Source of the DNA: Stenotrophomonas bentonitica | GTDB taxonomy: Bacteria; Pseudomonadota; Gammaproteobacteria; Xanthomonadales; Xanthomonadaceae | Assembly (NCBI RefSeq): GCF_002887735.1 | Contig: NZ_PKQP01000003.1 | Location: 310,001 to 374,000 of the forward strand | Direction of reading: 5' to 3' | Length of the DNA: 64,000 bases | In this document: positions 48,843-64,000 of the stretch, piece by piece | How the letters are laid out: the number at the start of each line of letters is the position of its first letter | Position numbering within the stretch: the first letter of the stretch is position 1 | Program-made: the position numbers and the translations under genes | Notes under the pieces: generated by a model | What the model was told of the DNA's origin: nothing | The model's database searches: none | Seen by the model: the letters and a program-made list of their open reading frames with translations, nothing else

Positions 48843-49573
48843 CAGACCATCCCTCCGTTCACCGAGATCACCTGGCGGGTGATGTAGCCGGCCGATTCGG
48901 AGAGCAGGAACGAGACCGCGGCAGCGACCTCCTCCGGCTGGCCCAGGCGGTTGGCCGGGATCAGCTTGAGCGCGTGCTCGACCACTTCTTCATTGACCAT
49001 CTCGGTCTCGATCAGCCCGGGGGCCACGCAGTTGACCGTGATCGCGCGGCTGGCCAGCTCCAGCGCCAGCGCCTTGGTGGCGCCGATGATGCCGGCCTTG
49101 GCCGCGCTGTAGTTGGTCTGGCCGCGGTTGCCGACCAGGCCGGAGACCGAGGACAAGGTGACGATGCGGCCAGGCTTGCGCCGGCGCACCAGCGGCATCA
49201 CCAGCGGGTGCAGCACGTTGTAGAAGCTGTCCAGGTTGGTGTGGATGACCGCATCCCAATCCTCGGCCGGCATCGCCGGGAAGGCGCCATCGCGGGCGAT
49301 GCCGGCATTGCAGACCACCCCGTAATACGTGCCGTGCGCTTCGATGTCCGCTTCCAGCGCGGTACGCGCGGCATCGCGGTCGCTGACGTCGAACATGAGC
49401 ACCCGGGCCTGTCGGCCCAGCGCCTGGATCTCGGCCACCACGGCCTGTGCTTCCTCGATGCGGCTGCGGCAATGCACCACCACATCGAAGCCGTCGCGCG
49501 CGCAACGCAGCGCCACGGCACGGCCGATGCCCCGGCTGGCGCCGGTCACCAGCACGGTCAGATTCCCTGTCAT
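48842..49573 (-). CDS. 3-ketoacyl-ACP reductase (FabG-like, ApeQ position)
   Basis: 243-residue SDR ketoreductase. NAD(P) motif TGASRGIGRAVAL (residues 10-22) and NAG (89-91) are intact. Catalytic residues are Ser142, Tyr155 and Lys159 (in SSVSG...YSAAKAG). It should reduce the 3-keto group of each polyene-extension unit with NADPH. It is encoded between the dehydratase (ATGA overlap) and the last ketosynthase (TGATG). Sequence alone cannot separate it from primary fatty acid FabG; the operon makes the pigment role likely. Confidence 0.9.
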   Translation of the reverse strand: MTGNLTVLVTGASRGIGRAVALRCARDGFDVVVHCRSRIEEAQAVVAEIQALGRQARVLMFDVSDRDAARTALEADIEAHGTYYGVVCNAGIARDGAFPAMPAEDWDAVIHTNLDSFYNVLHPLVMPLVRRRKPGRIVTLSSVSGLVGNRGQTNYSAAKAGIIGATKALALELASRAITVNCVAPGLIETEMVNEEVVEHALKLIPANRLGQPEEVAAAVSFLLSESAGYITRQVISVNGGMV

Positions 49574-50031
49574 GCCTCTCCACTCTCCAGATAGGCCATC
49601 GCGTCCGTGGGTTCAAACACGGAGACGTTGGCAACCGCCATTTCGATATCGCCCGCCAGGATCCGGCAGGCGAACATGCCCAGGCCATTCTCGCCCAACA
49701 ACTCGCAGTTCGCCTCCACCCGCAGGCAGCTGCCGGCGGCAAAGAACGGCTGGTGGGCGGTGTACCGGCGGGTGCCAAGCAGGAAGCCGATCGACGGCGC
49801 GCGGCCGGCGTGGCGTGCGCGGCACCCGGCCCAGGCGGCGATCGCCTGCGCCATGTACTCCACCCCGACCCAGGCGGGCACGCCATCAGGCGTGCAGAAC
49901 AGCCCCTGCGCAGGCACGTCCACCTCAACGGCGATGGACTCGTCCTGCCAGGCCACCACGCGGTGGATCAGGCGCATGCTGTCGCGGTGCGGCAGCACCG
50001 CATCGATGTCATCGGGCAGCGGCATGCTCAT
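49570..50031 (-). CDS. 3-hydroxyacyl-ACP dehydratase, hotdog fold (ApeP-like)
   Basis: 153-residue hotdog-fold protein. The N-terminal LPHRDSMRLI carries the His expected as catalytic base in the FabZ/ApeP group (His15). The helix GVEYMAQAIAAWAG (about 56-69) supplies the acidic residue. This should remove water from 3-hydroxyacyl-ACP to form the conjugated double bonds. In E. coli ApeP works with a second dehydratase (ApeI); here the second is the C-terminal part of the ligase at 59667-61352. It overlaps neighbours by ATGA on both sides. Confidence 0.85.
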   Translation of the reverse strand: MSMPLPDDIDAVLPHRDSMRLIHRVVAWQDESIAVEVDVPAQGLFCTPDGVPAWVGVEYMAQAIAAWAGCRARHAGRAPSIGFLLGTRRYTAHQPFFAAGSCLRVEANCELLGENGLGMFACRILAGDIEMAVANVSVFEPTDAMAYLESGEA

Positions 50032-51215
50032 CCTCGCGCCAGGGCCAGCACGGCGTTGCTGCCGCCGAAGGCGAACGAATGGCTGAGCACGTGCTGCAGC
50101 GGTTGCGCAGCGCGCGTGCCCGGTGCCACCAGGGCCAGCGCCGGCAAGGCGTCATCGGGCTGCCCGTCCCACCAGTGGGTGGGCAGCTGCTGGTCCGGGT
50201 TGTCGGCCAGGGTCATCCAGCACAGCGCCGCTTCGATCGCGCCCGAGGCGCCGAGCGTGTGCCCGGTCAGCGGCTTGGTCGAGCTGGCCGGCACCTGCGT
50301 GCCCAGCACCGCGGCGACCGCCTGGCTTTCCATCGCATCGTTGTGACCGGTGGCGGTGCCATGCAGGTTCACGTAGTCGATCTGCGCCGGCGCCAGCCCG
50401 GCCCGGTCCAGCGCCTGCTGCATGGCATCGATCGCGCCACGTCCCTGCGGATCCGGCGCGGACATATGGTGGGCATCGGACGATTCGCCCCAGCCGGACA
50501 GGCGCACCGGGCCCGGCTCGCGGGTCATCAGGAACAGCGCGGCGCCTTCGCCGATGTTGATGCCGCTGCGGTTTACCGAGAAGGGATTGCAGCGCACCGC
50601 CGAGACCGACTCCAGCGCGCTGAACCCGGCCACGGTGAAGCGGCACATCGAGTCCGCCCCGCCGGCGACCACCGCATCGACCACGCCGGCGCGCAGCAGG
50701 CGTGCGGCCGACATCAGCGCCTTGGCGCTGGACGAGCACGCGGTGGAGATCGTCCAGGCCGGGCCGGTGCTGCCGATCCGCTCACGCACGAAGCGCGCGG
50801 CGGTGCCCATTTCCTGCTGGGCGTAATGGAAATCCGCCGGCCACACGCCATCGCGGTGATAGGTGCGCAGTGCGTGCTCCGACTCGCCGATGCCCGAGGT
50901 GCTGGTACCGATGATCACCGCCACGCGCTCGGCACCAAAACGGGCGACGGCGGCATCGACGGCCTCGCGGATCTGGCCGAGCGCAGCGTCCAGCAGGCCG
51001 TTGTTGCGGCCGCGCAGGGCGACCGGCAGGTCGGCCAGGTCCGGCAGCGGCGCCTGCACTTCGCCCAGCGCCAGCGTGCGGCCGGGCAGGATGGTGTCGT
51101 TGTCGTGCAGCCCGCCGGGCTGCGCCGCGAACAGGCCCTCGCGCACCTGGGCGCGGTCGGCCCCCAGTGCGCAGATCACTCCCAGCTCGTTCAGATAGAC
51201 CGCGCTGCTGCTCAC
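50028..51215 (-). CDS. Beta-ketoacyl-ACP synthase (ApeO-like)
   Basis: 395-residue ketosynthase with the triad Cys160 (TISTACSSSAKA), His285 (YVNLHGTATGHND) and His319 (TGHTLGASG). The start is GTG 51215, preceded by GGCAGGGCCGAGA and overlapping the stop of the DUF3261 gene by GTGA. It probably is the main chain-elongating ketosynthase, paired with the chain-length-factor-like protein at the other end of the operon, like ApeO with ApeC. Its relative order next to ApeP/Q/R equivalents matches E. coli. Confidence 0.88.
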   Translation of the reverse strand: MSSSAVYLNELGVICALGADRAQVREGLFAAQPGGLHDNDTILPGRTLALGEVQAPLPDLADLPVALRGRNNGLLDAALGQIREAVDAAVARFGAERVAVIIGTSTSGIGESEHALRTYHRDGVWPADFHYAQQEMGTAARFVRERIGSTGPAWTISTACSSSAKALMSAARLLRAGVVDAVVAGGADSMCRFTVAGFSALESVSAVRCNPFSVNRSGINIGEGAALFLMTREPGPVRLSGWGESSDAHHMSAPDPQGRGAIDAMQQALDRAGLAPAQIDYVNLHGTATGHNDAMESQAVAAVLGTQVPASSTKPLTGHTLGASGAIEAALCWMTLADNPDQQLPTHWWDGQPDDALPALALVAPGTRAAQPLQHVLSHSFAFGGSNAVLALARG

Positions 51216-51763
51216 TCTCGGCCCTGCCCCATGTCCATTGATTCGATCACCAGTTCGTAGCCCTCGGCCAGGTTGCGCAGCCGCACGCGACCATCGGGCA
51301 ATGTCTCGCGCACCAGCCAGGGTGTGCCGCCCTGGACCAGGCTGCGCACGCCGTCGGTTTCCTGCAGGCTCCAGCCGTCCGGCAGCGCGGCACGGATCGC
51401 CGCGGCGGGCCACAACGCGAACTGCAGGTCGTCGAGCACGCGCTCGCCGCGCACCTGCGGCGGCAGCCACGGGGCCCGGGTCTGTTCCAGATGCTGCCCG
51501 TCCCAGACCATGCGCACGCCGGTCTGGCCCATCGCCTGCACCGCCAGCCGCACCTGTTCGGCATCCACCTCCAGCAGGGCATCCAGCTCACGCTCGTGGC
51601 TGCCGAAGCGGAACTGCAGGCGCTGCTGCAGCTGCACCGCCTGCGGCAATGCCGAGGGCGCCAGCTGCAGCACGGGCAGCTGTACCAGCGGCGTGGGCAT
51701 GCGGGTGCTGGCGCATGCGGCCAGCAGCAGGCTCAACAACAGGGTCAGGATCAGGCGCTGCAC
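51212..51763 (-). CDS. DUF3261 lipoprotein (ApeN-like)
   Basis: 183-residue lipoprotein. The signal ends LLLAACAST, so Cys17 should be acylated. The mature part matches the DUF3261 pattern (LQLAPSALPQ, about residues 33-42; WLPPQVRGERVLDDLQFALWPAAAIRAALP, about 98-127). Start is GTG 51763 with an excellent ribosome-binding site GGAGGAACT. It overlaps the FAD-enzyme gene upstream by 13 bases and the ketosynthase gene by GTGA. DUF3261 proteins occur in aryl-polyene operons and presumably act in outer-membrane placement; the mechanism is unknown. Confidence 0.85.
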   Translation of the reverse strand: MQRLILTLLLSLLLAACASTRMPTPLVQLPVLQLAPSALPQAVQLQQRLQFRFGSHERELDALLEVDAEQVRLAVQAMGQTGVRMVWDGQHLEQTRAPWLPPQVRGERVLDDLQFALWPAAAIRAALPDGWSLQETDGVRSLVQGGTPWLVRETLPDGRVRLRNLAEGYELVIESMDMGQGRE

Positions 51764-52992
51764 AGTTCCTCCAGCACGCGCAGGCGCCGACCGCTGGCGT
51801 CGGCAACGTACGGATTGTTGGTATCCCAGGCATAGCCGGCCAGGATCGAGGAGATCATGCGGCGCACCTCCGGCTGCGGATCGGGATGGTAGATGATCTT
51901 CTGGAAGCCACCGGCGTACCAGGCCTCGACGAAACGCCGGAAGGTTTTCACCCCGGCGCGCAGCGGCACCGAGAAGTCCTGTTCCCAGTCCACCGTTTCA
52001 CCGGCGTGCTCGCGGGCCAGGCAATCGCTGGCCAGCTGGGCCGATTTGAACGCGATAGTCACCCCCGAGGAAAACACCGGATCGAGGAACTCGCCGGCGT
52101 TGCCGAGCAGGGCATAGCCTTCGCCCCACAACGAGGAGACATTGGCCGAGTACCCGGTGATGGTGCGCACCGGCAGCACCGCCCATTCGGCGTTCCCGAG
52201 CAGGCGGGCCAGGTTCGGATCCTCACCGACGATGGCCTGCAGCTTCTCCAGATCGGTGCCCGGGTAGCGCGCGAAGAAGCTCGGCTCGGCCACCACGCCC
52301 AGCGAACAGCAGCCGTTGGAGAACGGAATCGTCCAGTACCACACGTCCACGTGCTCGGGATGGGTGGTGATCAGGATCTTGTTGCGATCAAAGCCCGCGC
52401 CGGCCGGAATGTGGTCGCGCACATGGCAAAAGATCGCACCGCGCACCGGGAAATTCGACGGCGACTCCAGGTCCAGCAGGCGCGGCAGCAACCGGGCGAA
52501 GCCGCTGGCGTCGAGAATGAAACCGGCCTCGATGGTGTACTCGCTGCCATCGGGCCGGCGCACCTGCACCTGCGCCGGACGCCCGGGCTGCACGGACAGC
52601 ACCTCATCACCGAAGCGCAGCGTAGCGCCCATGCGCTCGGCACCGCGCGCCAGCACGTCATCGAAGTCGGCGCGCTGCACCTGGTAGGTGGTGCCCCAGC
52701 CCGGCGAGAACTTGTCGCGGAAATCAAACTCGGTGGTCGCCTCGCTACGCACGAACGCCGCACCGTTCTTGTACTGGAACCCGGCCTGCACCACATCCTG
52801 CAGCAGCCCGGCCGCTTCGATGTATTCCATGCTCTGCGGCAGCAGGCTCTCGCCGATCGAGAACCGCGGGAACGCCTGGCGCTCCAGGATCAGCACCTGG
52901 CGCCCCTGCCGGCGCAGCATCGCCGCCGCCACGGAGCCGGCCGGGCCGGCGCCGATGACGAGGATTTCAGTACGTTCCACCTGCGGGTTCAT
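51751..52992 (-). CDS. FAD-dependent halogenase-like oxidoreductase
   Basis: 413-residue flavoenzyme. The FAD-binding GAGPAGS is at residues 14-20 and RFSIGESLLP at 43-52. Two motifs of flavin-dependent halogenases are present: WYWTIP at 218-223 (consensus WxWxIP) and Lys75 in FQYKNGAAF, a candidate for the Lys that forms the haloamine or positions HOCl/HOBr. A second FAD motif, GYALLGNAGEFLDPVFSSGV (292-311), follows. It is placed between the MMPL exporter and the DUF3261 lipoprotein, a position not used in the E. coli ape operon. Since xanthomonadins are brominated aryl polyenes, it is the best candidate for ring halogenation, although monooxygenase activity is possible. Confidence 0.8.
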   Translation of the reverse strand: MNPQVERTEILVIGAGPAGSVAAAMLRRQGRQVLILERQAFPRFSIGESLLPQSMEYIEAAGLLQDVVQAGFQYKNGAAFVRSEATTEFDFRDKFSPGWGTTYQVQRADFDDVLARGAERMGATLRFGDEVLSVQPGRPAQVQVRRPDGSEYTIEAGFILDASGFARLLPRLLDLESPSNFPVRGAIFCHVRDHIPAGAGFDRNKILITTHPEHVDVWYWTIPFSNGCCSLGVVAEPSFFARYPGTDLEKLQAIVGEDPNLARLLGNAEWAVLPVRTITGYSANVSSLWGEGYALLGNAGEFLDPVFSSGVTIAFKSAQLASDCLAREHAGETVDWEQDFSVPLRAGVKTFRRFVEAWYAGGFQKIIYHPDPQPEVRRMISSILAGYAWDTNNPYVADASGRRLRVLEELCSA

Positions 52993-53034: not shown

Positions 53035-55380
53035 TCAGTGCGGTGCGTCGTGCGGTGGCGGGCGGAACAGCGGCGAGATCAGCCAGACCAGGCCGATGCC
53101 GAACAACAGGGTCAACCCGAAGGCGCGCAGCGCCGGCGTGGCCGACAGCCCGAGCAGGCCGAACGACAACCAGGTGCTGGCCGCGCCCACGCAGACCGCG
53201 AGCCAGGCACTGGCATCACCGCGGTGTTCGATCAGGAAGATGCCGTAGTCGATGCCCATGCCGAGCAGCAGCATCAGCGCGAGGACGTTGAACAGTTGCA
53301 GTGGCTGGCCGAACAGCCCCAGCAGCGCCAGCGTCAGTGCGCCGGCGATCAGGGTCGGGGCGAGCACGCGCCAGGCCTGGCCGCGGTAGCGCCAGAACAG
53401 CACCGCAAACACCAGTGCGATGCCGATCAGCAGCAGCCCGCTCATCAGCTTGCGGTAATGCTTGAGCAGCTGCGAGAAATCGGCGGTCCGGTCCACCCAC
53501 CGCACGCCATCGATGCCCTTGGCCTGTGCTTCCAGCAGCGCCAGCGCATCGGCACGCGAGAGGTCATCGACCATCACCACCGACGCCACGCCCTGCCCGA
53601 CCGCGCCCAGCCACAGATGTCGGAACGGCATGGCTGCCGGCGAGGCAAGGAAGGCGTCGGCCTGCAGGTCCTGCGCAGCATAGGCCGGGCGCAGCAGTGG
53701 CTCACCCACCGCCGCACCGACCCGTGCCAGCACCTGCGGCTCGACCTTGGCGGTCAGGGCCGCATCGGCATGTTGGCGCTGCTGCGAGGGCAGCCAGTCG
53801 CTGATCGCACGGTAGCCACCGATCTGCTTGTCCGCTTCCAGCACGCGCAGGCGATCGATAAGTGCCTCTTCGCGCTCGAGCACCTGCTCGGCGGTATCGC
53901 CCTGGACCAGATAGAACTGCGCCGGGCTGGGCATGCCCAGCATCTGGCTGATGCGGATCTGCTGGGCGATCAGGTCCGGCGGCGATGACTGCAGGCTGCG
54001 CAGGTCGTCATTGGTCTGCAGACGGGCGATGCCGATCGCCGAGAGCACCGTCACCACGCCCAGGAAAAGCGCGGCACTGCGCCCATGCAGGCGCGGCCAG
54101 CGCTCCAGCGTGGCGCCCAGCCAGCGGGCGAAGCCGGTACGACGGATTTCGCCGCCATCCAGCCACGGGAACCAGAAGATCACGGTCAGGAAGGCGGCGG
54201 CCAGGCCGACCACCGAGAACAGCGCCATCTGGCGCAGCCCCGGGAACGGCGCCAGGCCCAGCGCGAGATAGGCCAGTGCGCTGGTCAACAGCGCCAGCCA
54301 CAGGCCAGGCAGCAGGTGCCGCAGCAGCTTCCATCGGCGGTCCGCCGGTTCGGCCTGGCGCGAGGCGAACCAGTGGATGCCGTAATCCTCGGCCACGCCC
54401 ACCAGCGAGGCACCGAACACCAGCGTCAACACATGCACCTTGCCGAACACCAGCACCGTCACCGCCAGCGCGACGCCACAGCCGATCAGCAGCGAGGCGG
54501 CCACCAGCAGGATCGGGCGCAGCGAACGGAACGCCAGCCATACCAGCAGCAGTACCGCGGCCAGCGACCCCCAGCCGATCGTATTGATCTCCCAGTTGGC
54601 CTGCACGGCCGCGGCTTCCGCATGCAGCGGGACGCCGGCACGCAGCACTTCCAGACCCGGCGCCTGCTTCATGGCGGCCTCGGCGGCGGTGTCCAGCAGC
54701 AGGTCGATATGGCGCTCGCCATCGAGCTGGAACGCCGAGCCGACCGTGTCGTACTGCACGATCGACCAATGCTTTCCATCGGCTTCCAGCAGGCCGTCAT
54801 CGCCCATCTGCAGGCCCGAACCCAGCGCGCGCTCCTGCCACCACTGCGGCCACAGCGAGAGCGGATCCTGGCGCCACTCGGTCAGGCGCGGCGCGCCCAT
54901 CGGGCCGTACAGCGCCGCCAGTGCCGATTCGGCCAGGCCATCGGTGGGTTCGTTCTGCAGCCGCTCGCGCTGTGCACTGGTCAGCAGGCGGTCGCGATAC
55001 GGTGTGTAGAACGCCCGTGCCTGATCGAACCAGCCTTCGATCGAGCCGCTTTCCTGGAGCAGCGGGGCAGCGCCCCGCTCCACCTTGATGGCATCGCGGA
55101 ATGCGGCCTCGGCCGCCTTGGTCTGCGCCGCATCGGTACTGCCCAGCAACACCACGATCTGGCGCGCGTTGGCATCGGCTATACGGCGGGTGACATCGGA
55201 GAGCAGGCGGTCGTGCGCATCCTGCGGCAACAGCGCGAGGATGTCGGTATCGATCCGCGATTCGCTCTTCCACAACTGCCATTGCTGCACGCCCAGGCCG
55301 ATCAGCACCAGCAGCCAGGCAATGGCCAGCCAGCGCCAGAGGCGCTGCAGGCGGCCGTTGGACGTCAGCACGTCATTCAA
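53035..55380 (-). CDS. MMPL/RND family exporter (ApeM-like)
   Basis: 781-residue transporter. It has one N-terminal membrane segment (about residues 13-30), a periplasmic domain (about 31-250), then five membrane segments (about 260-410), then a repeat of this arrangement (one segment near 440, periplasmic domain about 460-650, five segments about 650-775). FGASLVGVAEDYGIHWFASR (about 325-345) and LGMGIDYGIFLIEH (about 700-713) are the typical paired MMPL motifs. It probably extrudes the polyene-lipid across the inner membrane. Start is TTG 55380 (or GTG three codons later); TTG overlaps the LolA-like stop by 8 bases. Confidence 0.88.
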   Translation of the reverse strand: MNDVLTSNGRLQRLWRWLAIAWLLVLIGLGVQQWQLWKSESRIDTDILALLPQDAHDRLLSDVTRRIADANARQIVVLLGSTDAAQTKAAEAAFRDAIKVERGAAPLLQESGSIEGWFDQARAFYTPYRDRLLTSAQRERLQNEPTDGLAESALAALYGPMGAPRLTEWRQDPLSLWPQWWQERALGSGLQMGDDGLLEADGKHWSIVQYDTVGSAFQLDGERHIDLLLDTAAEAAMKQAPGLEVLRAGVPLHAEAAAVQANWEINTIGWGSLAAVLLLVWLAFRSLRPILLVAASLLIGCGVALAVTVLVFGKVHVLTLVFGASLVGVAEDYGIHWFASRQAEPADRRWKLLRHLLPGLWLALLTSALAYLALGLAPFPGLRQMALFSVVGLAAAFLTVIFWFPWLDGGEIRRTGFARWLGATLERWPRLHGRSAALFLGVVTVLSAIGIARLQTNDDLRSLQSSPPDLIAQQIRISQMLGMPSPAQFYLVQGDTAEQVLEREEALIDRLRVLEADKQIGGYRAISDWLPSQQRQHADAALTAKVEPQVLARVGAAVGEPLLRPAYAAQDLQADAFLASPAAMPFRHLWLGAVGQGVASVVMVDDLSRADALALLEAQAKGIDGVRWVDRTADFSQLLKHYRKLMSGLLLIGIALVFAVLFWRYRGQAWRVLAPTLIAGALTLALLGLFGQPLQLFNVLALMLLLGMGIDYGIFLIEHRGDASAWLAVCVGAASTWLSFGLLGLSATPALRAFGLTLLFGIGLVWLISPLFRPPPHDAPH

Positions 55381-55993
55381 ACTTGCGGCCCTCGTCGGCG
55401 CTCAACGCCGCCGGCGTATCGCTCATGCCGGCAAAGTGGATGCGGGTGACATCCTGGTTGGCCTCGTTGATCTGCACCTCGCGCACGTAGCGGTCACCGC
55501 TCAGAGTGAGCTGCGCAAACACCTTGCCGAGCATCGCCGAGCGCGGCGTCAGCTGCATGCGCCAGGCATTGCCGGGCAACACCTCGACCTTGACCGTGAA
55601 CTGCGCCGACAGCGCCTGCGCATCGCCGCTCATCAACGCGAACATGATCGCGTTGACCGAGCGCATCGCCGGCTGCTGGCGGCCATCCAGTTCCACCCGG
55701 CTGCTGCCATCGCTTTGCCGGCTGAGGATGCGGTCGCGGGTGACCACCACCTCGGAGGGGAACGGCTTGAGCGTGGTCCAGACCACCCCGTGGTCCTGGG
55801 CCAGCACGAAGCGACCCTGCGAGCGCAGCGGATTCTTGAAGCCGGCGACCTGTTTCTCCTGGGTGAACTCGCCACGCAGCACGTCGACCTTGGCCACGCG
55901 CTGCTTGACTGCCTCCACATCGGTGGCGGCGAACGCCGGGGCGACCATGGCCAGCATCAGCAGCACGCACAGCATGCTCAGGAAACGGTTCAT
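55373..55993 (-). CDS. LolA-like periplasmic lipid carrier (ApeL-like)
   Basis: 206-residue exported protein of the LolA fold. Signal peptide MNRFLSMLCVLLMLAMVAPAFA; the mature N-terminus has VDVLRGEFTQEKQVAGFKNPLRSQGRF (about residues 32-58), the typical LolA-like FxQxKxxxGxxxPLxSxGxf pattern. It should carry the hydrophobic polyene through the periplasm between the exporter and the outer membrane. ATG 55993 begins the signal; a 14-residue in-frame upstream extension overlaps the thioesterase. It overlaps the thioesterase gene by ATGA and the exporter gene by 8 bases. Confidence 0.87.
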   Translation of the reverse strand: MNRFLSMLCVLLMLAMVAPAFAATDVEAVKQRVAKVDVLRGEFTQEKQVAGFKNPLRSQGRFVLAQDHGVVWTTLKPFPSEVVVTRDRILSRQSDGSSRVELDGRQQPAMRSVNAIMFALMSGDAQALSAQFTVKVEVLPGNAWRMQLTPRSAMLGKVFAQLTLSGDRYVREVQINEANQDVTRIHFAGMSDTPAALSADEGRKFE

Positions 55994-56412
55994 TGCGGTT
56001 GCACTCCCAGACGCTCCCACAGCACCGGCGGGCACAGGTAGAGCATTTCATTGGTGGCCGCGTCGACCGCGACCTGGATGGTATGGGCGCGGGTCAGCGT
56101 AGTACCGCTGTCCGCATCCACGATTTCATAGGCGATCTTCAGGCGGTTTTCCCACTCGGTGATCGTGGCGCGCACGCGCAGTGCCTGGCCGTACAGCAGC
56201 GGGCGGATGTACTTCACCCGCGCATCGACCACCGGCCACAGGTAACCGGAATCGCGCATCTGCGGGTAGTCGTAATCATGGCGCTGCAGCAGGGCGCAAC
56301 GCGCGATCTCGAAGTACTTGAAATAGTTGCCGTGCCAGACCACCTGCATCGCATCGCAGTCATGGAAGGCCGGCGACAGCGTCACCTCGAAGCTCAGATC
56401 AGGCGTGGACAT
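55990..56412 (-). CDS. Acyl-ACP/CoA thioesterase, 4HBT hotdog (ApeK-like)
   Basis: 140-residue 4-hydroxybenzoyl-CoA thioesterase-like hotdog protein. The catalytic region FHDCDAMQVVWHGNYFKYFEIAR (about residues 15-37) has the YbgC-type Asp followed by GNYF. It could release mis-primed or finished acyl chains from the ACP. The start ATG 56412 overlaps the ammonia-lyase stop by 14 bases. A gene of this kind sits at the same place in the E. coli ape operon. Confidence 0.86.
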   Translation of the reverse strand: MSTPDLSFEVTLSPAFHDCDAMQVVWHGNYFKYFEIARCALLQRHDYDYPQMRDSGYLWPVVDARVKYIRPLLYGQALRVRATITEWENRLKIAYEIVDADSGTTLTRAHTIQVAVDAATNEMLYLCPPVLWERLGVQPQ

Positions 56413-57955
56413 ACAACTCCCAGCGCTGTGCGCGGATATCGTCCAGCAGGGCGCGCAACTCGCCATCCAGCGCGCGGTCTTCCTCGATCAGCGCGATGCG
56501 CTCGGACAGGTCCTGGTACATCGCGGCCAGATCGCCGTGCAACGTCGCTTTCATGCCGACACGCTCGCGCAGGGCCACGCCCTGGCGGGCAGTGATCAGC
56601 AGCGCGGCGACGACCTGTTCGGTCAGTTCGATCACGCGCAGGCAATCGCGCGCTGCGATGGTGCCCATGCTGACCTTGTCCTGGTTGTGGCATTCGGTGG
56701 AACGCGAGAACACCGAGGCCGGCATGGTCTGCTTGAGCGCTTCGGCGGTCCACGCCGAGACACTGATCTGCAGCGCCTTCAGGCCATGGTTGATCGCGGC
56801 ACGCTCACCGGTGGCGGCCGACAGGTTGGCCGGCAGACCGTGGTTGAAGCGCGCATCCACCACCAGCGCCATCTGCCGATCAAGCAGATCGGCCAGGTTG
56901 GCGATGGTGTTCTTCAGCGCGTCCATCGCGAAGGCGATGTGGCCGCCGTAGAAGTGGCCACCATGCAGGATGCGCTCGCCCTCGACATCGATCAGCGGGT
57001 TGTCGTTGGCGCTGTTGAGTTCGGTTTCGATCAGCTGGCGGAAGAACGGCAGGGCGTCCTGCACCACGCCGATCACGTGCGGGGCGCAGCGCAGCGAGTA
57101 ACGGTCCTGCAGGCGCTGTTCGTTGCGCGGCGGCCGGTCGCTGTGCAGGTCCTGGCGCAGGCGCGCGGCGATCCGGGTCTGCCCCGGGTGCGGCTTGGCA
57201 GCGAACAGCATTTCATCGAAATGATGGGCGTTGCCGTCACTGGCCAGCACGTTGAAGGCGGTCAGGCGCGTGGCCAGCCTGGTCAGGTAGTCGGCGCGGT
57301 CGTACGCCAGGCAGGCCAGCGCCGTCATCACGGCGGTGCCGTTCATGATCGCCAGGCCTTCCTTGGGGCGCAGCCGCAGCGGCGCCATGCCGATCTCGGC
57401 CAGCACCTCGGCCGCCGGGCGGCGCGACCCCTGGTACATCACCTCGCGCTCGCCGCAAAGCACCGCGGCCACGTAGGACAGCGGGGTCAGATCGCCGCTG
57501 GCGCCGACCGAGCCTTCGGCCGGGATCAGCGGCAGCACGTCATGCCGCAGCAGCGTGGCCAGGCCCTGCAGCAGCGGGTGGCTGACCCCGGACATGCCGC
57601 GCACCAGCGAAGCCAGGCGCGCGGCGATCACGGCACGGGTTTCCTGCGGGTCCAGGAAACGCCCCAGGCCACAGCCGTGGTAGGTGAACAGGTGGTGCGG
57701 CAGTTCGGCCACCAGCGCCGGCGGAATGTTCACCGTGCACGAATCGCCGTAGCCGGTGGTCACCCCGTAGATGACGCCGTCTTCGCGCAGCAGGCGATCG
57801 AGGAAGTCCGCGCCGCGCTGGATGCGCGCGGTGAACGCGGCATCGTCGGTGACCACGGCCTGGGCCTGGCGCTGTGACAGCGCGACCACGTCTTCGATGG
57901 TCAGCGGCGCATCGCCGAAGCGGACGGAGGGTGCCTGATCGGCCTTACTTGCCAT
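56399..57955 (-). CDS. HAL/PAL/TAL family aromatic ammonia lyase
   Basis: 518-residue MIO-dependent ammonia lyase. The MIO-forming tripeptide Ala152-Ser153-Gly154 sits in GSVGASGDLTPLSYVAAVLCG, the N-terminal loop YGVTTGYGDS is at about residues 63-72, and the substrate-selector position aligns with Tyr92-His93. His there is seen in His- and Tyr-lyases, whereas phenylalanine lyases have Phe-Leu. It would make urocanate, coumarate or cinnamate. It lies inside the pigment operon, with no histidine-degradation (hut) gene nearby, so making or modifying the aromatic starter is more likely than histidine catabolism. ATG 57955 overlaps the LPLAT stop by 11 bases. Similar genes in Xanthomonas are often labelled hutH. 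Confidence 0.9.
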   Translation of the reverse strand: MASKADQAPSVRFGDAPLTIEDVVALSQRQAQAVVTDDAAFTARIQRGADFLDRLLREDGVIYGVTTGYGDSCTVNIPPALVAELPHHLFTYHGCGLGRFLDPQETRAVIAARLASLVRGMSGVSHPLLQGLATLLRHDVLPLIPAEGSVGASGDLTPLSYVAAVLCGEREVMYQGSRRPAAEVLAEIGMAPLRLRPKEGLAIMNGTAVMTALACLAYDRADYLTRLATRLTAFNVLASDGNAHHFDEMLFAAKPHPGQTRIAARLRQDLHSDRPPRNEQRLQDRYSLRCAPHVIGVVQDALPFFRQLIETELNSANDNPLIDVEGERILHGGHFYGGHIAFAMDALKNTIANLADLLDRQMALVVDARFNHGLPANLSAATGERAAINHGLKALQISVSAWTAEALKQTMPASVFSRSTECHNQDKVSMGTIAARDCLRVIELTEQVVAALLITARQGVALRERVGMKATLHGDLAAMYQDLSERIALIEEDRALDGELRALLDDIRAQRWELYVHA

Positions 57956-58892
57956 GAGATGCCTGATCCCAGAAGGGGAAGAAATTGAACCAGTCCAAGG
58001 GTGCCTGGGTGACCTGAACTTCCAGCCACCGGGCGAAATGTTCCGCCTGCGCGGTCAGCGCGGCGTCACGCGAACCGCGCGGCAATACGATGCGGTCGGT
58101 GAACTGTTCAAAGCGCACCTGGTAGCCACGCCCGTGATGCAGGCAGGCCATGGTGTAGACCGGGCAGGCCAGCGCGGCGGCCAGTACATAGGCGCCGATC
58201 GGGAACTGCGCGGTGTGGCCGAGGAACGGGGCCGGCACGGTGCGCCCGCCACGCAGCGGCACGCGGTCGCCGACGATGGCCACGAAACCACCCGCCTCGA
58301 CCCGGCGCTGCAGCTCGACCGCGGTGGCCGGGCCCATGTCGGTGACCTGCAGCAGCTCCACCGAGGCCAGCGGATCGAGCCGCTGCATCAGGCGGTTGAA
58401 GCGCTGCGCGTGCGCGGTGTGGACCAGCACGGTGATGTGGAAGCCCGGCACCCGCTCGGCCAATACCTGGCACAGCTCCAGGCAGCCGATGTGCGCGGTG
58501 AGGATCAGCCCGCCTTCGCGGCGCGCGATCTTGTCCAGCACCAGGTCGCGCTGCAGATGGATGTGCTCGGGCGGATAGCGGCCGCCCAGGCCGAGCAGCT
58601 TGTCGAGCATGGTGTCGGCAAACAGCGCGAAGTGCTTCAGGCTCTGCCAGCGCCCGGGTGCCGAGGGGAACACGCCGGTATGGGCCTGCAGGCGCTCCAG
58701 GTACTGCAGCGACGATTCGCGCGCGACCCGGTTGCTCAACCAGTGGCAGAGCACCACCGGGTACACGCACAGCCGGAACGGCCAGCGGCCGAACCAGCGG
58801 TGCACCCAGCACAGGAACAGCACGCCGGCGGCCGAGGTGGACTCGCCGATGTCGGCCCAGTGCGGGGCACTGCCGGGGGCGGGCGTGGTCAT
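57945..58892 (-). CDS. LpxL/HtrB-type acyltransferase (C-terminal half of ApeJ equivalent)
   Basis: 315-residue lysophospholipid/lipid A acyltransferase-like protein. The family motif H-x4-E is LTAHIGCLELC (His134, Glu139), with FALFADTMLDKLL upstream and GDRVPLRGGRTVPAPFLG in the second half. E. coli ApeJ fuses a glycosyltransferase with such an acyltransferase; here they are two genes with an ATGA overlap (58889-58892). It may transfer the polyene from ACP to a glycosylated lipid carrier. The product stops 11 bases inside the ammonia-lyase gene. Confidence 0.85.
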   Translation of the reverse strand: MTTPAPGSAPHWADIGESTSAAGVLFLCWVHRWFGRWPFRLCVYPVVLCHWLSNRVARESSLQYLERLQAHTGVFPSAPGRWQSLKHFALFADTMLDKLLGLGGRYPPEHIHLQRDLVLDKIARREGGLILTAHIGCLELCQVLAERVPGFHITVLVHTAHAQRFNRLMQRLDPLASVELLQVTDMGPATAVELQRRVEAGGFVAIVGDRVPLRGGRTVPAPFLGHTAQFPIGAYVLAAALACPVYTMACLHHGRGYQVRFEQFTDRIVLPRGSRDAALTAQAEHFARWLEVQVTQAPLDWFNFFPFWDQASHGK

Positions 58893-59674
58893 GCGCCGGG
58901 CCCTGCGATGCGCTGCCACAGCAGCCGCGGCGCGCGCCACAGCATTCCGACGAACAGGCGCGCGTGCATGCGGCTGATGCGCACGTTGTCGCGCCACACA
59001 TCGAAGTGCGAGACGCCATCGCTGGGATAGGTGACGGCGGTCGGCACACTGATCACCTTCACCCCACGCCAGAACAGCCGCACCAGGATTTCACTGTCGA
59101 AATCCATGCGCCGGCCGATGGTTTCCTCGCCCATCAGGCGGATCACCGGGGCCAGTGGATACAGGCGGAAGCCACACATCGAGTCGCGGATCTGCAGCGA
59201 CAGCGTGTTGATCCAGACCCAGATATGCGTGGCGTAGCGACCGTACAGGCGCGCCTTGGGCACGCTGGCGTCATAGCGCGGGATACCACAGATCACCGCC
59301 TCCGGCTGCGCCTGCGACAGCGCGACGAAACGGGGGATATCGGCAGTCTCGTGCTGGCCGTCGGCATCTATCTGCAGCACGTGGCTGTAGCCCAGGCGCG
59401 CGGCTTCGGCAAAGCCGGCCAGCATCGCGCCACCCTTGCCCTGGTTCACCGCCAGCCGCAGCAGCGTCACCTGCGGTGCGTGCTCGCGGGCCAGCGCATC
59501 AAGCACCTGCGCGCACTCCCGGTGCGAGCCATCGTCGACCAGCAGGCACGGCTGCCCACTGGCCAGCACGCCCTGCACCACCGCACCGATCGCATGCGCG
59601 TGGTCGTACACCGGGATCACCACCAGCGGGGCGAAGGCCGACCTGCTCATGCCGTCACCGGAGTCATCACGCAT
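58889..59674 (-). CDS. Family 2 glycosyltransferase (N-terminal half of ApeJ equivalent)
   Basis: 261-residue GT2. The fold starts APLVVIPVYDHAHAIGAVV; LLVDDGSHREC and LQIDADGQHE (DxD-like metal site, about residues 105-112) are the nucleotide-sugar binding motifs. The end matches the family (VWRDNVRISRMHARLFVGML). ATG 59674 gives an 8-base overlap with the ligase stop; an internal ATG at 59650 with more typical distance from the fold start is the alternative. It likely glycosylates the carrier lipid or polyene. Sugar unknown. Confidence 0.85.
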   Translation of the reverse strand: MRDDSGDGMSRSAFAPLVVIPVYDHAHAIGAVVQGVLASGQPCLLVDDGSHRECAQVLDALAREHAPQVTLLRLAVNQGKGGAMLAGFAEAARLGYSHVLQIDADGQHETADIPRFVALSQAQPEAVICGIPRYDASVPKARLYGRYATHIWVWINTLSLQIRDSMCGFRLYPLAPVIRLMGEETIGRRMDFDSEILVRLFWRGVKVISVPTAVTYPSDGVSHFDVWRDNVRISRMHARLFVGMLWRAPRLLWQRIAGPGA

Positions 59675-61352
59675 CACCAAACACCACCCGGCCGCTGGCG
59701 TGCACGCCATGGACGGAGACGTAGCGGAAGCTCATCGCCGACCTGGCCGCATCCCAGCCCAGGCTCAGCTGCAGGCAGTCGCCCGGGCGGGCCACGTGCT
59801 GGAACTTGACCGCGTCCATGCGCAGGAACTGCGGCGGCATCGTGAATGCGCTGCGGCTGTAGTGGATCGCCCAGTCCAGCTGGACCACGCCGGGCAGGAT
59901 CCTGGCCTGCGGGAAGTGCCCGTCGAATGCGACCAGGTCCGGATCCAGCACGAGCTGCAGCGAGGCGCTGGTGGCATCGCGCTGCTGCCACTCCGGGGTC
60001 GGCATCAGCGGCCGGAACAGGGCCGCCAGTGCCGCGGCAGTAACCTTGCCCTGCGCGTTGAGCGGCAGTTCGTCGATGAAACGCCAGCGGCGCGGCCGGG
60101 TCACGGCATCGTGGCTTTGGGCCAGATGCGCGCCGAGCTGCTGCGCCTGGCGGCGGCGCTGTGCATCGTCCCAGTTCGCGGCGCCCGCCGCCTGCGGCAC
60201 CACCACGGCGGCCAGCTGTTCGCGCGCGCCCGGCAGCACCAGCACGCGCACGTCCTGCACCGCCGGGTGCGCACGCAGCTGCTGTTCGAGGGCGTCCAGC
60301 GAGACGCGGCGCTCTTCGATCTTGACGATGCGGTCGGCGCGGCCGAGCAGCCGGAAGCTGTGGCCGTCATCGGCGACGGCGCGGTCCTGGGTCAGCCACC
60401 AGTCGTCGTTGTCCAGGTGCGGCGAACGCACCGCCAGGCAACCTTCCTCGATCCGCCAGGCAACGCCCGGCAACGGATGCCACTGCGGCTGGGCGGCACT
60501 CCAGCGCCGCCAGGCCACGCCACCGGTCTCGCTGCTGCCGAAGACCTCGGTCGGGGCCACGCCCATCAGGGCGCGGACCTGCAGCGCCGCCTCGGTCGGC
60601 AGCGGGCCACCGGAGGAGAACACCGCACGCAGCTGGCCGCCCAGCGAGGACCAGTCCAGCTGTTCGGGCAACCGTTTGAGGTGGGCCGGGGTCGCCACCA
60701 GCACCGACGGCTGGCCGCCCAGCGCGCTGACCAGATCCTCATGGAAAAACCGGCGCGGCTGGATCGCGCGGCCGGCCACCAGCGGCCACAGCACGCGGAA
60801 CAGCAGGCCGTAGATGTGCTGGTGCGAGACCGTGCCCTGCACCTGCGCGCCGTCCATCTGCTCGCCGAAGGCGGCCTGCAACGCATCCACCTCGCGGGTC
60901 AGCTGGCGCATGCGTTTGACGATCGCGCTCGGCGCACCGGTGCTGCCGGAGGTGAACACCACCAGTGCCAGTGCGGCTTCATCCAGCGGTTGCAGCACGA
61001 CGGCGGGATCGACCTCCGGATCCGGCTGCAGCGGCGCATAGCGCGCCGGCACGTCACCCGCAAAACCGGCCACGCGCGGGCTCAATCCTTCCAGCGTGGC
61101 CGGCAGGTTGTCGCCTCCGAGGAACACGCGCTTGCCGGCATGCCACGCCCCCAGCAGGGCGGCGGCGAAGGTGAGCGTGTCATCGAAATACAGCGCCCAG
61201 TCGGTGCCGGGCGCGCGTGCGAAGGCCTGCTGCCAGCGCAGCACCTGCGTGCGGAACTGCGGATGGTCCACCACGGTGTCGCCGGCCATGCCGACGATGC
61301 GGCCCGGGCGCGGCACCAGCGCCAACCGGTCCAGTGCGATCCACTCAGCCAT
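59667..61352 (-). CDS. Aryl-acid:ACP ligase fused to a hotdog dehydratase (XanA2/ApeH-ApeI-like)
   Basis: 561-residue bimodular enzyme. The N-terminal AMP-binding domain has TSGSTGAP (134-141), FGSSETGG (271-278), GRADRIVKIEERRV (337-350) and the terminal catalytic Lys436 (LNAQGKV), so it activates an aromatic acid with ATP and loads it onto the ACP. The C-terminal part (about 455-561) has GHFPQARILPGVVQLDW (478-494) with His479, a FabA/FabZ-like dehydratase motif, equivalent to a separate ApeI. In Xanthomonas such a protein loads 3-hydroxybenzoate. ATG 61352 overlaps the upstream membrane-protein stop by 8 bases; ATG 61358 is also possible. Confidence 0.9.
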   Translation of the reverse strand: MAEWIALDRLALVPRPGRIVGMAGDTVVDHPQFRTQVLRWQQAFARAPGTDWALYFDDTLTFAAALLGAWHAGKRVFLGGDNLPATLEGLSPRVAGFAGDVPARYAPLQPDPEVDPAVVLQPLDEAALALVVFTSGSTGAPSAIVKRMRQLTREVDALQAAFGEQMDGAQVQGTVSHQHIYGLLFRVLWPLVAGRAIQPRRFFHEDLVSALGGQPSVLVATPAHLKRLPEQLDWSSLGGQLRAVFSSGGPLPTEAALQVRALMGVAPTEVFGSSETGGVAWRRWSAAQPQWHPLPGVAWRIEEGCLAVRSPHLDNDDWWLTQDRAVADDGHSFRLLGRADRIVKIEERRVSLDALEQQLRAHPAVQDVRVLVLPGAREQLAAVVVPQAAGAANWDDAQRRRQAQQLGAHLAQSHDAVTRPRRWRFIDELPLNAQGKVTAAALAALFRPLMPTPEWQQRDATSASLQLVLDPDLVAFDGHFPQARILPGVVQLDWAIHYSRSAFTMPPQFLRMDAVKFQHVARPGDCLQLSLGWDAARSAMSFRYVSVHGVHASGRVVFGDA

Positions 61353-61896
61353 GCGCATGCGCCGCCTTGACCCGTCGCCGGACCAGCCATTCCCCACCAA
61401 ACAGAGCACCCATCATCACGTACGCCAACAATCCGTTGTAGAACGCCCAGACCTGGTTGGACGCCCACAGCGCCGTGGCCAGGGCCAGACTTCCGTTGAG
61501 AACAAAGAAGCCGCACCAGATCCAGGTGACCCGGCGGGTATAGATCACGGCGAACGGCGGCAGGTCCGGCTCGCTCAGCCGCGCCAGGCGCTCCACCGCG
61601 CTGGGGCCGAAGCGCAGGCTGGTCGCGAAGATCACCAGCATCACCGCATTCACCAGCGCCGGGTACAGCTTCAGCGGCAGCGCCTGGTTGAAGGCCGTGG
61701 CGACCAGGGCGAGCACGCCGGTACCGAGCGCGGCCACCCACCACACCGCCTGGCGGGTGGTCAGCGCGCGCAGCGCGGCCAGGGTGAACAGCAGCAGCGA
61801 CAACCAGCGCGGCTCGAACCGGCCCAGCGACAGGTACACCACCAGCGGGTATGCCAGCGACAGCAACGCAAACGCCGCGACGCGTACCCGGACCAT
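61345..61896 (-). CDS. COG4648-type membrane protein (ApeG-like)
   Basis: 183-residue inner-membrane protein with about six hydrophobic segments (about 7-24, 30-46, 50-68, 76-92, 120-140, 145-165) and a basic end (RRRVKAAHAHG). Proteins of this kind (COG4648) occur at this place in aryl-polyene and xanthomonadin clusters, between the ACP genes and the ligase gene. No reaction is known; a role in anchoring the synthase complex at the membrane is conceivable. It lies 22 bases after the ACP gene's stop side (61919) and overlaps the ligase gene by 8 bases. Confidence 0.8.
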   Translation of the reverse strand: MVRVRVAAFALLSLAYPLVVYLSLGRFEPRWLSLLLFTLAALRALTTRQAVWWVAALGTGVLALVATAFNQALPLKLYPALVNAVMLVIFATSLRFGPSAVERLARLSEPDLPPFAVIYTRRVTWIWCGFFVLNGSLALATALWASNQVWAFYNGLLAYVMMGALFGGEWLVRRRVKAAHAHG

Positions 61897-61918: not shown

Positions 61919-62176
61919 TCAGGCGGCCGCTTGACCGGGCAACAGCCCGTGCACCACATCCACGATGTCCTGCACGGTACGCACCTGCTTGAAGGCTTCC
62001 GGTTGCAGATTGCGGCCGAGCAGCGGCTTGAGCTGCACGATCAGGTCGACCGCGTCGATGCTGTCGATGTCCAGGTCGTCGTACAGCCGCGCGGCAGGCG
62101 TGATGCGGCTCGGCTCGATCTCAAAGCTGTCCTTGAGGATCTTGACGATGCGCTCGAAAAGTTCGTTCTTGGTCAT
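61919..62176 (-). CDS. Acyl carrier protein 2 of the pigment operon (ApeF-like)
   Basis: 85-residue ACP. The phosphopantetheine attachment Ser39 lies in LDIDSIDAVDL, and the four-helix pattern is intact. Family comparison suggests one ACP carries the starter and the other carries the extending chain; which is which cannot be decided here. It starts with ATG 62176 and follows ACP 1 after 20 bases. Confidence 0.93.
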   Translation of the reverse strand: MTKNELFERIVKILKDSFEIEPSRITPAARLYDDLDIDSIDAVDLIVQLKPLLGRNLQPEAFKQVRTVQDIVDVVHGLLPGQAAA

Positions 62177-62196: not shown

Positions 62197-62457
62197 TTAG
62201 GACGGCTGGCGTGCGGCGACAAACTCGCTCAGGGCACGCACGCTGGAGAAATGGCGACGGGTCTCTTCCGAATCGGCTGACAGGCTGACACCGTACTTTT
62301 TCTGCAGGGCCAATCCAAGTTCCAGCGCGTCGATCGAATCCAGGCCCAGCCCCTCGACAAACAGGGGGGCGGCGGAATCGATGTCTTCGGGAGTGATGTC
62401 TTCCAGTGAAAGCGATGAAATGATCAATTCCTTGATCTCGTGCTCAAGTGCCTGCAC
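62197..62457 (-). CDS. Acyl carrier protein 1 of the pigment operon (ApeE-like)
   Basis: 86-residue ACP with Ser41 in LGLDSIDALELG. The start is most likely GTG 62457 (V-Q-A-L-E-H), since GGAGA is 8 bases upstream and the overlap with the acyltransferase gene is only 14 bases. A TTG at 62493 would add 12 residues (PITSTSLETRPVQ...) without a ribosome-binding site. Together with the second ACP it should carry the polyene through elongation. Confidence 0.9.
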   Translation of the reverse strand: MQALEHEIKELIISSLSLEDITPEDIDSAAPLFVEGLGLDSIDALELGLALQKKYGVSLSADSEETRRHFSSVRALSEFVAARQPS

Positions 62458-63247
62458 GGGTCGGGTCTCCAGCGAAGTCGAAGTAATGGGCAAGATGATC
62501 GGTCACACGCCTGGCCGCCAAGGCATCCCCCCTGGGCGCATCGCCGGTCTCGTTCAGAAACGGGGCGATCGGGAGATCCTCCCCGACTTCCAGCTGAACG
62601 TGAAATCGCCGTGATGGCACACGATACCATTTCTGGCCCTTGGTCAGGGTCGGCGGGGTGCAGGTGATCCGCACCGGGGTGATGTCCAGCCGGCCCCGCA
62701 CCGCGATGTTGGCCGCGCCACGCTGCAGGCGCAGCGGCTGCCCGGACACGGTGCGGGTCCCTTCCGGGAAGATCACCAGGTTGCCGCCGGCCTGGACCGC
62801 GGCGATGCAGTCGTCCACCAGCCCGGCCCCATCATCATTGGAGACATAACCGGCGGCACGCACCGGGCCGCGCATGAACGGGTTGCGGGCCACGGCCTGC
62901 TTGACCACGCAGTCGGCATTGGGCAGCTGGGCGATCAGCAGCACCACATCGATCAGGGTCGGATGGTTGGCCAGGATCAGCAGGCCGTTGCGCTGCAGGC
63001 GCTCGCCCCCGCGGATCTCGTAGGTCATCAGCCCCAGCCGGCGCATCAGGCCGACGTGGGTGGCGAAACCGGCTTGGACCAGGCGCCGCGCCAGCACGCG
63101 CCGGCGGACCGGGTCGCGGACCAGCAACAGGGACAGGAACAGCATCCCGCCCAGGACCAGCCCGCCGATCCCGAAGGCGGCAAAGCTCAGCCCCGTGCCC
63201 AGCACCCGCCAAGCACGGTTGATCCGGGCCGGCCAGCGCTCAGCCAT
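62444..63247 (-). CDS. PlsC-like 1-acylglycerol-3-phosphate acyltransferase (ApeD-like)
   Basis: 267-residue membrane-associated LPLAT. The acyltransferase motif is NHPTLID (HX4D: His95, Asp100), followed by IFPEGTRT (159-166). Hydrophobic segments occupy residues 15-43. In the aryl-polyene series this protein is placed between the chain length factor and the ACPs (ApeD). It presumably helps to attach the polyene to its lipid. ATG 63247 overlaps the preceding stop by 8 bases. Confidence 0.86.
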   Translation of the reverse strand: MAERWPARINRAWRVLGTGLSFAAFGIGGLVLGGMLFLSLLLVRDPVRRRVLARRLVQAGFATHVGLMRRLGLMTYEIRGGERLQRNGLLILANHPTLIDVVLLIAQLPNADCVVKQAVARNPFMRGPVRAAGYVSNDDGAGLVDDCIAAVQAGGNLVIFPEGTRTVSGQPLRLQRGAANIAVRGRLDITPVRITCTPPTLTKGQKWYRVPSRRFHVQLEVGEDLPIAPFLNETGDAPRGDALAARRVTDHLAHYFDFAGDPTRAGT

Positions 63248-63974
63248 GGCGTTGCCAGCTCCAGTGCTGGCCGTCGGCCTCCAGGCCCAGCGAAGGCGAC
63301 CCCGCCAGCAGGAAGCGCAGCGCTTCAAGGCCATGCGGCAGACCGTCGGAGGGACGATCCCCGCCGCCGGCACCCCAGCCCAGCGACAGTCGGGTGCCCG
63401 GGCCGCTGGCCGGCCCGAGCCGCCAGCACCACGCGAAGAAGGGGTCGGGCTCGTCGGCGAAGCCGACATAGATCGGCGGCAACGGCGATTCGTACACCAC
63501 CAGCCGCACCTCCGGCGCACCATCGGCGAGCAGCCCGAAGGCCTCCACGCAGGCCGTTTCCACCGTGGCCCGGGCGGCCGCGAGGGCCAGATAGTTGCCC
63601 CGCTGGCCGCGGGCGATCGAGTACAGCGCTGCGATCGCGTTGTGCACCGACAGGCCGAAGCCGGTCGGCGACATCGGCTGGTCCGCACTCAGGGTGTTGA
63701 GCAGCTCCATCGAACGGGCCACGTCGCCGTGCCGCGAGGCGAACACCAGCGGCACCCGGCCACCGTCGTCGGGCTGCTCGCACCAGCAGGCGGTCTGGAT
63801 CGCCATGCGTCCGAGCCGCTCGATGCGACGTCGCTGCATGGCGGGCACTTCGGACAACGCGGGGGTGTCCTCACCGGTGGGCAGCCAGGGGGCCTTCGCC
63901 CACGCCTGCCACTGCGCGTGGGTGGTGATGCCCGGCGCCCACGCCGCCCAATCGATTACAGAAAACTCAATCAT
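63240..63974 (-). CDS. Chain-length-factor-like ketosynthase domain protein (ApeC-like), first gene in window
   Basis: 244-residue protein of the 'beta-ketoacyl synthase N-like' family found in aryl-polyene clusters. Motif PTGFGLSVHNAIAALYSIARGQRGN (about residues 106-130) has SVHN where active ketosynthases have the catalytic Cys. That and the length (half of a normal KS) mark it as chain-length factor partner, not a condensing enzyme. ATG 63974 follows GGCGGGA; a GC-rich ATG four codons earlier is less likely. The operon promoter must lie upstream of 63974; only 26 bases remain, so the true first gene may be outside the window. Confidence 0.85.
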   Translation of the reverse strand: MIEFSVIDWAAWAPGITTHAQWQAWAKAPWLPTGEDTPALSEVPAMQRRRIERLGRMAIQTACWCEQPDDGGRVPLVFASRHGDVARSMELLNTLSADQPMSPTGFGLSVHNAIAALYSIARGQRGNYLALAAARATVETACVEAFGLLADGAPEVRLVVYESPLPPIYVGFADEPDPFFAWCWRLGPASGPGTRLSLGWGAGGGDRPSDGLPHGLEALRFLLAGSPSLGLEADGQHWSWQRHG

Positions 63975-64000
63975 TCCCGCCAACATGATGGATGGGTACC

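Follow-up and report, generated by a model that had tools for sequence, protein, structure and literature searches.

The window analysed here, a 64,000-nucleotide stretch of Stenotrophomonas bentonitica DNA (contig NZ_PKQP01000003.1, positions 310,001 to 374,000), carries an intact MIO-family ammonia lyase gene with a Tyr-His selector inside an aryl polyene (APE) operon. In the ORF list of the window, the lyase ORF lies at 56399-57955 on the minus strand, starts with ATG and encodes 518 amino acids. Pfam returned a full-domain MIO-family match (PF00221 Lyase_aromatic, 530 bits, residues 18-467). The Ala-Ser-Gly MIO triplet is unbroken at residues 152-154 (GSVGASGDL), and the selector stretch FTYHGCGLG begins at residue 90, placing the pair at Tyr92-His93; in the alignment it faces the Ser-His pair of the HutH encoded in the same genome (VLSHAAGVG). 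The original prediction had read the MIO motif and the selector in the same way and had seen no hut context, and indeed none of the operon genes scanned was a hut gene. The lyase ORF shares 11 bp with the upstream acyltransferase ORF and, at its end, 14 bp with the thioesterase gene as counted from its likely start at 56412, and is thus embedded in the operon. The operon spans apeC to apeR, with ApeJ split into a glycosyltransferase and an acyltransferase, and fits the APE_Vf-type definition, in which an ammonia lyase and an acyltransferase accompany the ape PKS genes. Its genes are as follows:

63240..63986, minus strand: apeC-like ketosynthase chain-length factor (PF13723, 206 bits)
62444..63688, minus strand: apeD-like lysophospholipid acyltransferase (PF01553, 58 bits)
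62197..62493, minus strand: apeE-like acyl carrier protein (PF00550)
61919..62176, minus strand: apeF-like acyl carrier protein (PF00550)
61345..61896, minus strand: apeG-like protein, without a Pfam match, assigned by position and by homologues in APE loci
59667..61409, minus strand: apeH-apeI fusion, aryl-ACP ligase and dehydratase (PF00501 and PF22818 ApeI-like)
58889..59710, minus strand: apeJ part 1, family-2 glycosyltransferase (PF00535)
57945..58997, minus strand: apeJ part 2, acyltransferase (PF03279), overlapping the lyase start by 11 bp
56399..57955, minus strand: aromatic amino acid lyase, predicted to be a tyrosine ammonia-lyase (TAL) serving the APE operon (PF00221, motif table, tree, linkage to photoactive yellow protein, PYP)
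55990..56466, minus strand: apeK-like thioesterase (PF13279), likely start 56412
55373..56035, minus strand: apeL-like LolA chaperone (PF03548)
53035..55380, minus strand: apeM-like RND exporter, without a Pfam match (TIGR03480, 83 bits, under cut-off)
51751..52992, minus strand: FAD-dependent halogenase-like enzyme with a WYWTIP motif (PF04820, 78 bits)
51212..51763, minus strand: apeN-like DUF3261 protein (PF11659, 121.5 bits)
50028..51470, minus strand: apeO-like ketosynthase (PRK09185, 508 bits); the listed ORF is overlong at its start, with the domain from about residue 89
49570..50031, minus strand: apeP-like dehydratase (PF22817 ApeP-like)
48842..49573, minus strand: apeQ-like ketoreductase (PF13561)
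47601..48842, minus strand: apeR-like ketosynthase (PF00109/PF02801)

The longest apeC ORF begins 33 bp further out, past the window edge (L007:3241-4020). The apeD-like domain covers residues 224-341, so the true start probably lies well within the listed ORF. Below, G handles denote sampled genomes (G000 being the genome of the window) and L handles denote loci. To judge from length and gene list, Acinetobacter (L006) shares the ApeH-ApeI fusion of the window, and the two are separate ORFs in Pseudoalteromonas (L004) and E. coli.

To place the lyase among its relatives, we compared its neighbourhood across three sets of loci. The order acyltransferase-lyase-thioesterase was found in all 74 genome_contigs loci in which both neighbours were scored (best 80 of 586 confirmed stretches), as well as in 35/35 genome regions and 3/3 plasmid loci scored for both neighbours. 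This gives 112/112 over three sets that overlap and include the window itself; some genome_contigs loci come from the same assemblies as sampled genomes (L149/G081, L152/G068), so the sets are not independent, and the region analysis excluded five lyase genomes with short contigs (G045, G052, G118, G177, and G182). A recent insertion of the lyase is ruled out by this conserved slot, and the original prediction's wording that the gene was “inserted” in the pigment operon had to be given up. At least 3 of 13 other ape genes were present in 76/80 genome_contigs loci (best 80 of 586), and 4/80 had fewer than 3 in the fetched flanks; two of these four ape-poor loci, L177 and L193, lie on contigs shorter than 13 kb. 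In L193, L217, and L221, the sequence fetched around the APE-type lyase contains fewer than 3 other ape-like genes. With the set made up of the best 80 among 586 confirmed stretches, the number of lyases outside APE clusters may be too low. The closest named relatives of the window lyase are from Stenotrophomonas, with 95% identity in S. rhizophila, a non-pathogenic species (best 80 of 586).

Of 200 genomes sampled from the order, 28 carried the lyase at 55% identity or more, and the next identity down was 39%. ApeR was found in 26 of these 28, the two without it (G045 and G118) being fragmented drafts. Conversely, 19 of 45 ApeR genomes had no lyase, so the lyase is not required for every APE. 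In the class sample, 16/369 genomes passed our threshold for an APE-type lyase (E 1e-120), and the 14 lyases first met there were all in loci with other ape genes. Pseudoalteromonas and Acinetobacter records hold the lyase in the same slot between apeJ and apeK, and in E. coli CFT073 no lyase separates these two genes. The lyase is an ordinary conserved gene of the APE yellow-pigment operon. This has been published: in the available passages, a Pseudomonas paper counts the ammonia lyase as a characteristic APE gene with APE_Vf as reference (PMC8719888), and another paper lists ammonia lyase genes with others that resemble the V. fischeri cluster (PMC5851621), so its presence in the operon is not new. 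The gene is common to the window operon and to the APE_Vf-type clusters of Aliivibrio fischeri and Pseudomonas; a divergent xanB2-type gene beside apeC is a feature of this strain, with A. fischeri compared by description. The lyase is therefore a listed hallmark of a common pigment cluster for which the passages of PMC8719888 and PMC5851621 name no substrate, and a literature search made largely outside subscription papers found no substrate assignment for an APE-type lyase.

The same APE operon was also seen in Myxococcota (Archangium, Corallococcus, and Myxococcus; L167, L168, L172, L173, L174, and L216), with lyases 75-77% identical to that of the window. An APE operon with so similar a lyase suggests transfer between phyla. 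The lyase of L214, from a Herbaspirillum MAG, has Asp-Ser-Gly as its MIO triplet, either a sequencing error or an inactive enzyme.

To assess the substrate, we compared specificity motifs across 121 APE-type rows, a table that counts the window lyase twice. The selector was Tyr-His in 101 rows and Phe-His in 20, making the window's Tyr-His the rule of its clade. Specificity motif 2 was Asn-Gln in 121/121 APE-type rows vs Gln-Glu in 5/5 HutH. The combination of motif 2 Gln with a selector His is a TAL-type pattern, with the window's His at the second position, unlike the first-position His of His-Leu TALs. It resembles FlxA of Chitinophaga pinensis, a proven TAL described in part of PMC3992019 as having a HAL-like motif 1 and a TAL/PAL-like motif 2, with kcat/KM values of 7728 for Tyr and 7.7 for Phe and no product from His. 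The two enzymes differ in profile, as the window lyase reached just 331 bits on the FlxA model NF053541 (cut-off 700). Its top NCBIfam match was the BagA/FevW TAL model NF041222 at 408 bits, far under the cut-off of 1000, with HutH models close behind (401 and 393 bits).

An argument for a tyrosine lyase from sequence alone comes from the light-sensor protein PYP. Text from PMC12826048 and PMC9664959 states that PYP binds p-coumarate, which is made by a TAL and activated by a ligase. L177, a Methylibium MAG contig of 7.5 kb, carries, in this order, a lyase, PYP (182.6 bits, cut-off 143), and a 4-coumarate-CoA ligase (362.7 bits, cut-off 334.7). Its lyase is 73% identical to the window lyase (best 80 of 586) and falls within the APE clade, where Paucibacter APE lyases are its neighbours (82% identity, SH-aLRT 98); since the outer branches of this quickly built tree are long, we used this nesting alone. 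In the class sample, 64 genomes matched PYP in all and 5/369 passed the curated cut-off by which we counted, leaving out G476 (85 bits). Three genomes (G287, G319, and G344) have a lyase near pyp and ligase; these lyases are 44-52% identical to the alphaproteobacterial pyp-operon lyase L271 and 34-38% identical to the window lyase, and no APE-type lyase was found in these genomes at E 1e-120. In G446 (L261) and G484 (L260), PYP adjoins a relative of 4-coumarate ligase (254 bits in G446, under the cut-off of 334.7, and 335.9 bits in G484), with no lyase in the 20 kb of sequence examined around pyp and an APE-type lyase elsewhere in the genome. That APE lyase is the single PF00221 gene of G446, and the second PF00221 gene of G484 is HutH by score (650 bits vs cut-off 539). 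The overlap of APE lyase and PYP, 2/5 genomes vs 0.22 expected, gives P = 0.016 with kinship ignored.

The tie to a product requiring 4-coumarate is thus present in relatives (L177 and G446) and not in the window's genome, where PYP had no match. Only 2/33 lyase genomes searched had PYP above cut-off (a search that omitted nine further Stenotrophomonas), so PYP is not the usual partner of the lyase. In addition, PYP hosts may import coumarate from outside, according to part of PMC12826048. The same source, as far as its available text goes, reports a TAL in 7 instances among 113 pyp operons, and the pigment-operon lyase indicates a possible location for some of the TALs that pyp operons lack. 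The pyp-operon TALs (Halorhodospira; L271, Indioceanicola) carry out the reaction we propose here, and one such operon contains the L177 lyase; L271 itself has a His-Leu selector and 35% identity, in contrast to the Tyr-His or Phe-His of the APE clade.

A XanB2-type chorismatase, which the original prediction had suggested looking for, was found directly past the right edge of the window. This XanB2/FkbO-type gene is intact (340 aa), lies at contig positions 374101-375123 (L007:4102-5124), divergent from apeC, and starts 101 bp outside the window; it scored 139 bits on PF21168 (cut-off 27) and 208 bits on TIGR04444 (cut-off 325). In our genus sample (n = 13), four genomes (G000, G199, G096, and G165) carry the chorismatase adjoining apeC at that operon end. 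It is also present in G013 and G151 without an ApeR match or an APE-type lyase, and so has another role. Seven genomes of the genus (G023, G040, G047, G068, G081, G086, and G131) had no chorismatase by profile and protein search and no UbiC, and all seven retained the lyase and the APE operon. The gene sits between apeC and cydB in G000, G096, L142, L144, and L160; in the seven genomes, cydB and cydA adjoin apeC without xanB2, with 220 bp separating the apeC and cydB alignments in G086. The chorismatase was likewise missing at this site in S. maltophilia, S. sepilia, S. pavanii, and S. pennii loci.

Among the 64 genome_contigs loci with enough upstream sequence, XanB2 lay near the cluster in 5, all Stenotrophomonas (best 80 of 586). 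The 0/13 obtained for the genome regions is an artefact, caused by a tight upstream limit; XanB2 is present in L100, L101, L102, and L141. Together, the seven genomes and the 5/64 loci indicate that the operon is independent of an adjacent chorismatase. As far as our searches reach, a 3-hydroxybenzoate start via a XanB2 of this family would be unavailable in the seven genomes, and the absence of the chorismatase with retention of lyase and operon favours an independent starter. We considered an Rv2949c-type chorismate lyase as the missing source of 4-hydroxybenzoate and rejected it, finding no match in 10 congeneric genomes. Where present, the neighbouring chorismatase probably serves at least ubiquinone via 4-hydroxybenzoate, and it may act as the source of a second starter. 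Because some relatives have xanB2 at this locus and others lack it, they represent a natural experiment on chorismate vs tyrosine starters.

The original prediction had named histidine or tyrosine as the more likely substrate, and our comparisons kept tyrosine (PYP linkage, FlxA-like motifs) and turned against histidine. Tyrosine is most likely the favoured substrate and 4-coumarate the product, given the PYP operon of L177, the sole PF00221 gene of G446, and the precedent of FlxA as a hybrid-motif TAL. A histidine ammonia-lyase, acting in histidine breakdown or providing urocanate for the pigment, would account for the His at the second selector position and for the 393 bits on the hutH model TIGR01225. 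We regard it as highly improbable: that score is below the cut-off of 539, the HAL Glu of motif 2 is replaced by Gln, a relative sits in a PYP operon, and the genome has a separate hutH-hutG-hutU set on another contig in which all three genes pass their cut-offs (HutH 692 bits). Moreover, L270, annotated as a tyrosine aminomutase, combines Ser-His with Gln, so the selector His is no sign of histidine as substrate. A phenylalanine or broad aromatic lyase yielding cinnamate is also very unlikely. The motif 2 Gln is common to PAL and TAL (part of PMC3992019), but the Phe-Leu selector was missing from all 121 APE-type rows and PYP requires p-coumarate (stated in an excerpt of PMC12826048). A tyrosine 2,3-aminomutase forming a beta-amino acid belongs to the same superfamily, and the tyrosine aminomutase 2rjr is among the top solved phmmer relatives. 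To this reading we give almost no weight: TIGR03832 scored 299 bits, under its cut-off of 501 and lower than the BagA, HutH, and FlxA models, and NRPS-type partner genes were not found among the operon genes scanned.

For the role of the product, we consider it probable that the lyase is the TAL of an APE_Vf-type operon and that its 4-coumarate starts the polyene. The MIO group would strip ammonia from L-tyrosine to give 4-coumarate, the ApeH ligase would attach this C6-C3 acid to an acyl carrier protein, and the ACP-bound 4-coumarate would then be extended by the type II PKS. 4-Coumarate is 4-hydroxybenzoate plus one C2 unit, already dehydrated, and starts from either acid yield the same polyene carbon pattern; the head of the polyene would be a 4-hydroxyphenyl group in both cases. 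A tyrosine-derived starter is plausible, and it has a known counterpart in flexirubin, an aryl polyene that FlxA starts from tyrosine (a passage in PMC3992019). Flexirubin has a dialkylresorcinol ester, and a matching gene was not noted among the window operon genes scanned. We asked whether ApeH scores on the 4-coumarate ligase model reveal the starter and rejected them as non-discriminating: lyase-free clusters gave 75.1, 85.9, and 105.5 bits and lyase clusters 95.8, 94.7, and 115.7 bits, so the ligase lends no support to a 4-coumarate starter. It is possible, though rather unlikely, that the enzyme is a TAL while the polyene begins from 4- or 3-hydroxybenzoate, with 4-coumarate used as a tailoring acyl group, for conversion to 4-hydroxybenzoate, or as an auxiliary starter. 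The XanB2-type gene at the apeC end of four operons speaks for such a start, as do partial accounts that ApeH of X. doucetiae loads 4-hydroxybenzoate in assay (PMC8253772) and that 3-hydroxybenzoate restores pigment in an L. enzymogenes ORF5 mutant (PMC3691225). Against it stand the rarity of XanB2 near the cluster, the seven operon-bearing genomes without it, and its other role in G013 and G151. It is quite unlikely that the lyase is a general source of 4-coumarate for the polyene, the PYP chromophore, and ubiquinone 4-hydroxybenzoate alike. Such a source would supply the chromophore where the pyp operon has no TAL and, in its boldest step, would make 4-hydroxybenzoate via 4-coumarate in Stenotrophomonas without xanB2 and UbiC. 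The lyase was present in 7/7 chorismatase-lacking genomes among 36 sampled of the family, all close relatives. Yet at least 8 chorismatase-negative genomes (among 20 listed, of 46) had neither a UbiC match nor an APE-type lyase, so other routes to 4-hydroxybenzoate must exist.

Returning to 4-coumarate as the starter, we infer substrate, product, and starter use from sequence comparison. The idea of an amino acid starter in the original prediction gains from a possible 4-coumarate start and from the seven genomes without chorismatase, but a chorismate-derived start could still serve the window strain. The prediction had further expected chemistry to differ from Xanthomonas if the polyene starts from an amino acid. 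The xanthomonadin, L. enzymogenes, and arcuflavin clusters share with the present strain an aryl polyene type II PKS and a XanB2-type chorismatase, and their starter is 3-hydroxybenzoate (excerpts of PMC3691225 and PMC3949708); a term search of the available text of these two papers found no ammonia lyase. This contrast is not absolute, since Xanthomonas bonasiae (L162) has an APE cluster of the same type with a 77% identical lyase.

Finally, we rejected the idea that the lyase has an obligate partner in the operon's FAD enzyme, which was present in 52/69 (best 80 of 586), 26/36, and 3/3 loci. The motif WxWxIP, presumably a flavin-halogenase signature, was found in 79/82 homologues of this enzyme adjoining the lyase, and the pigment may be halogenated.
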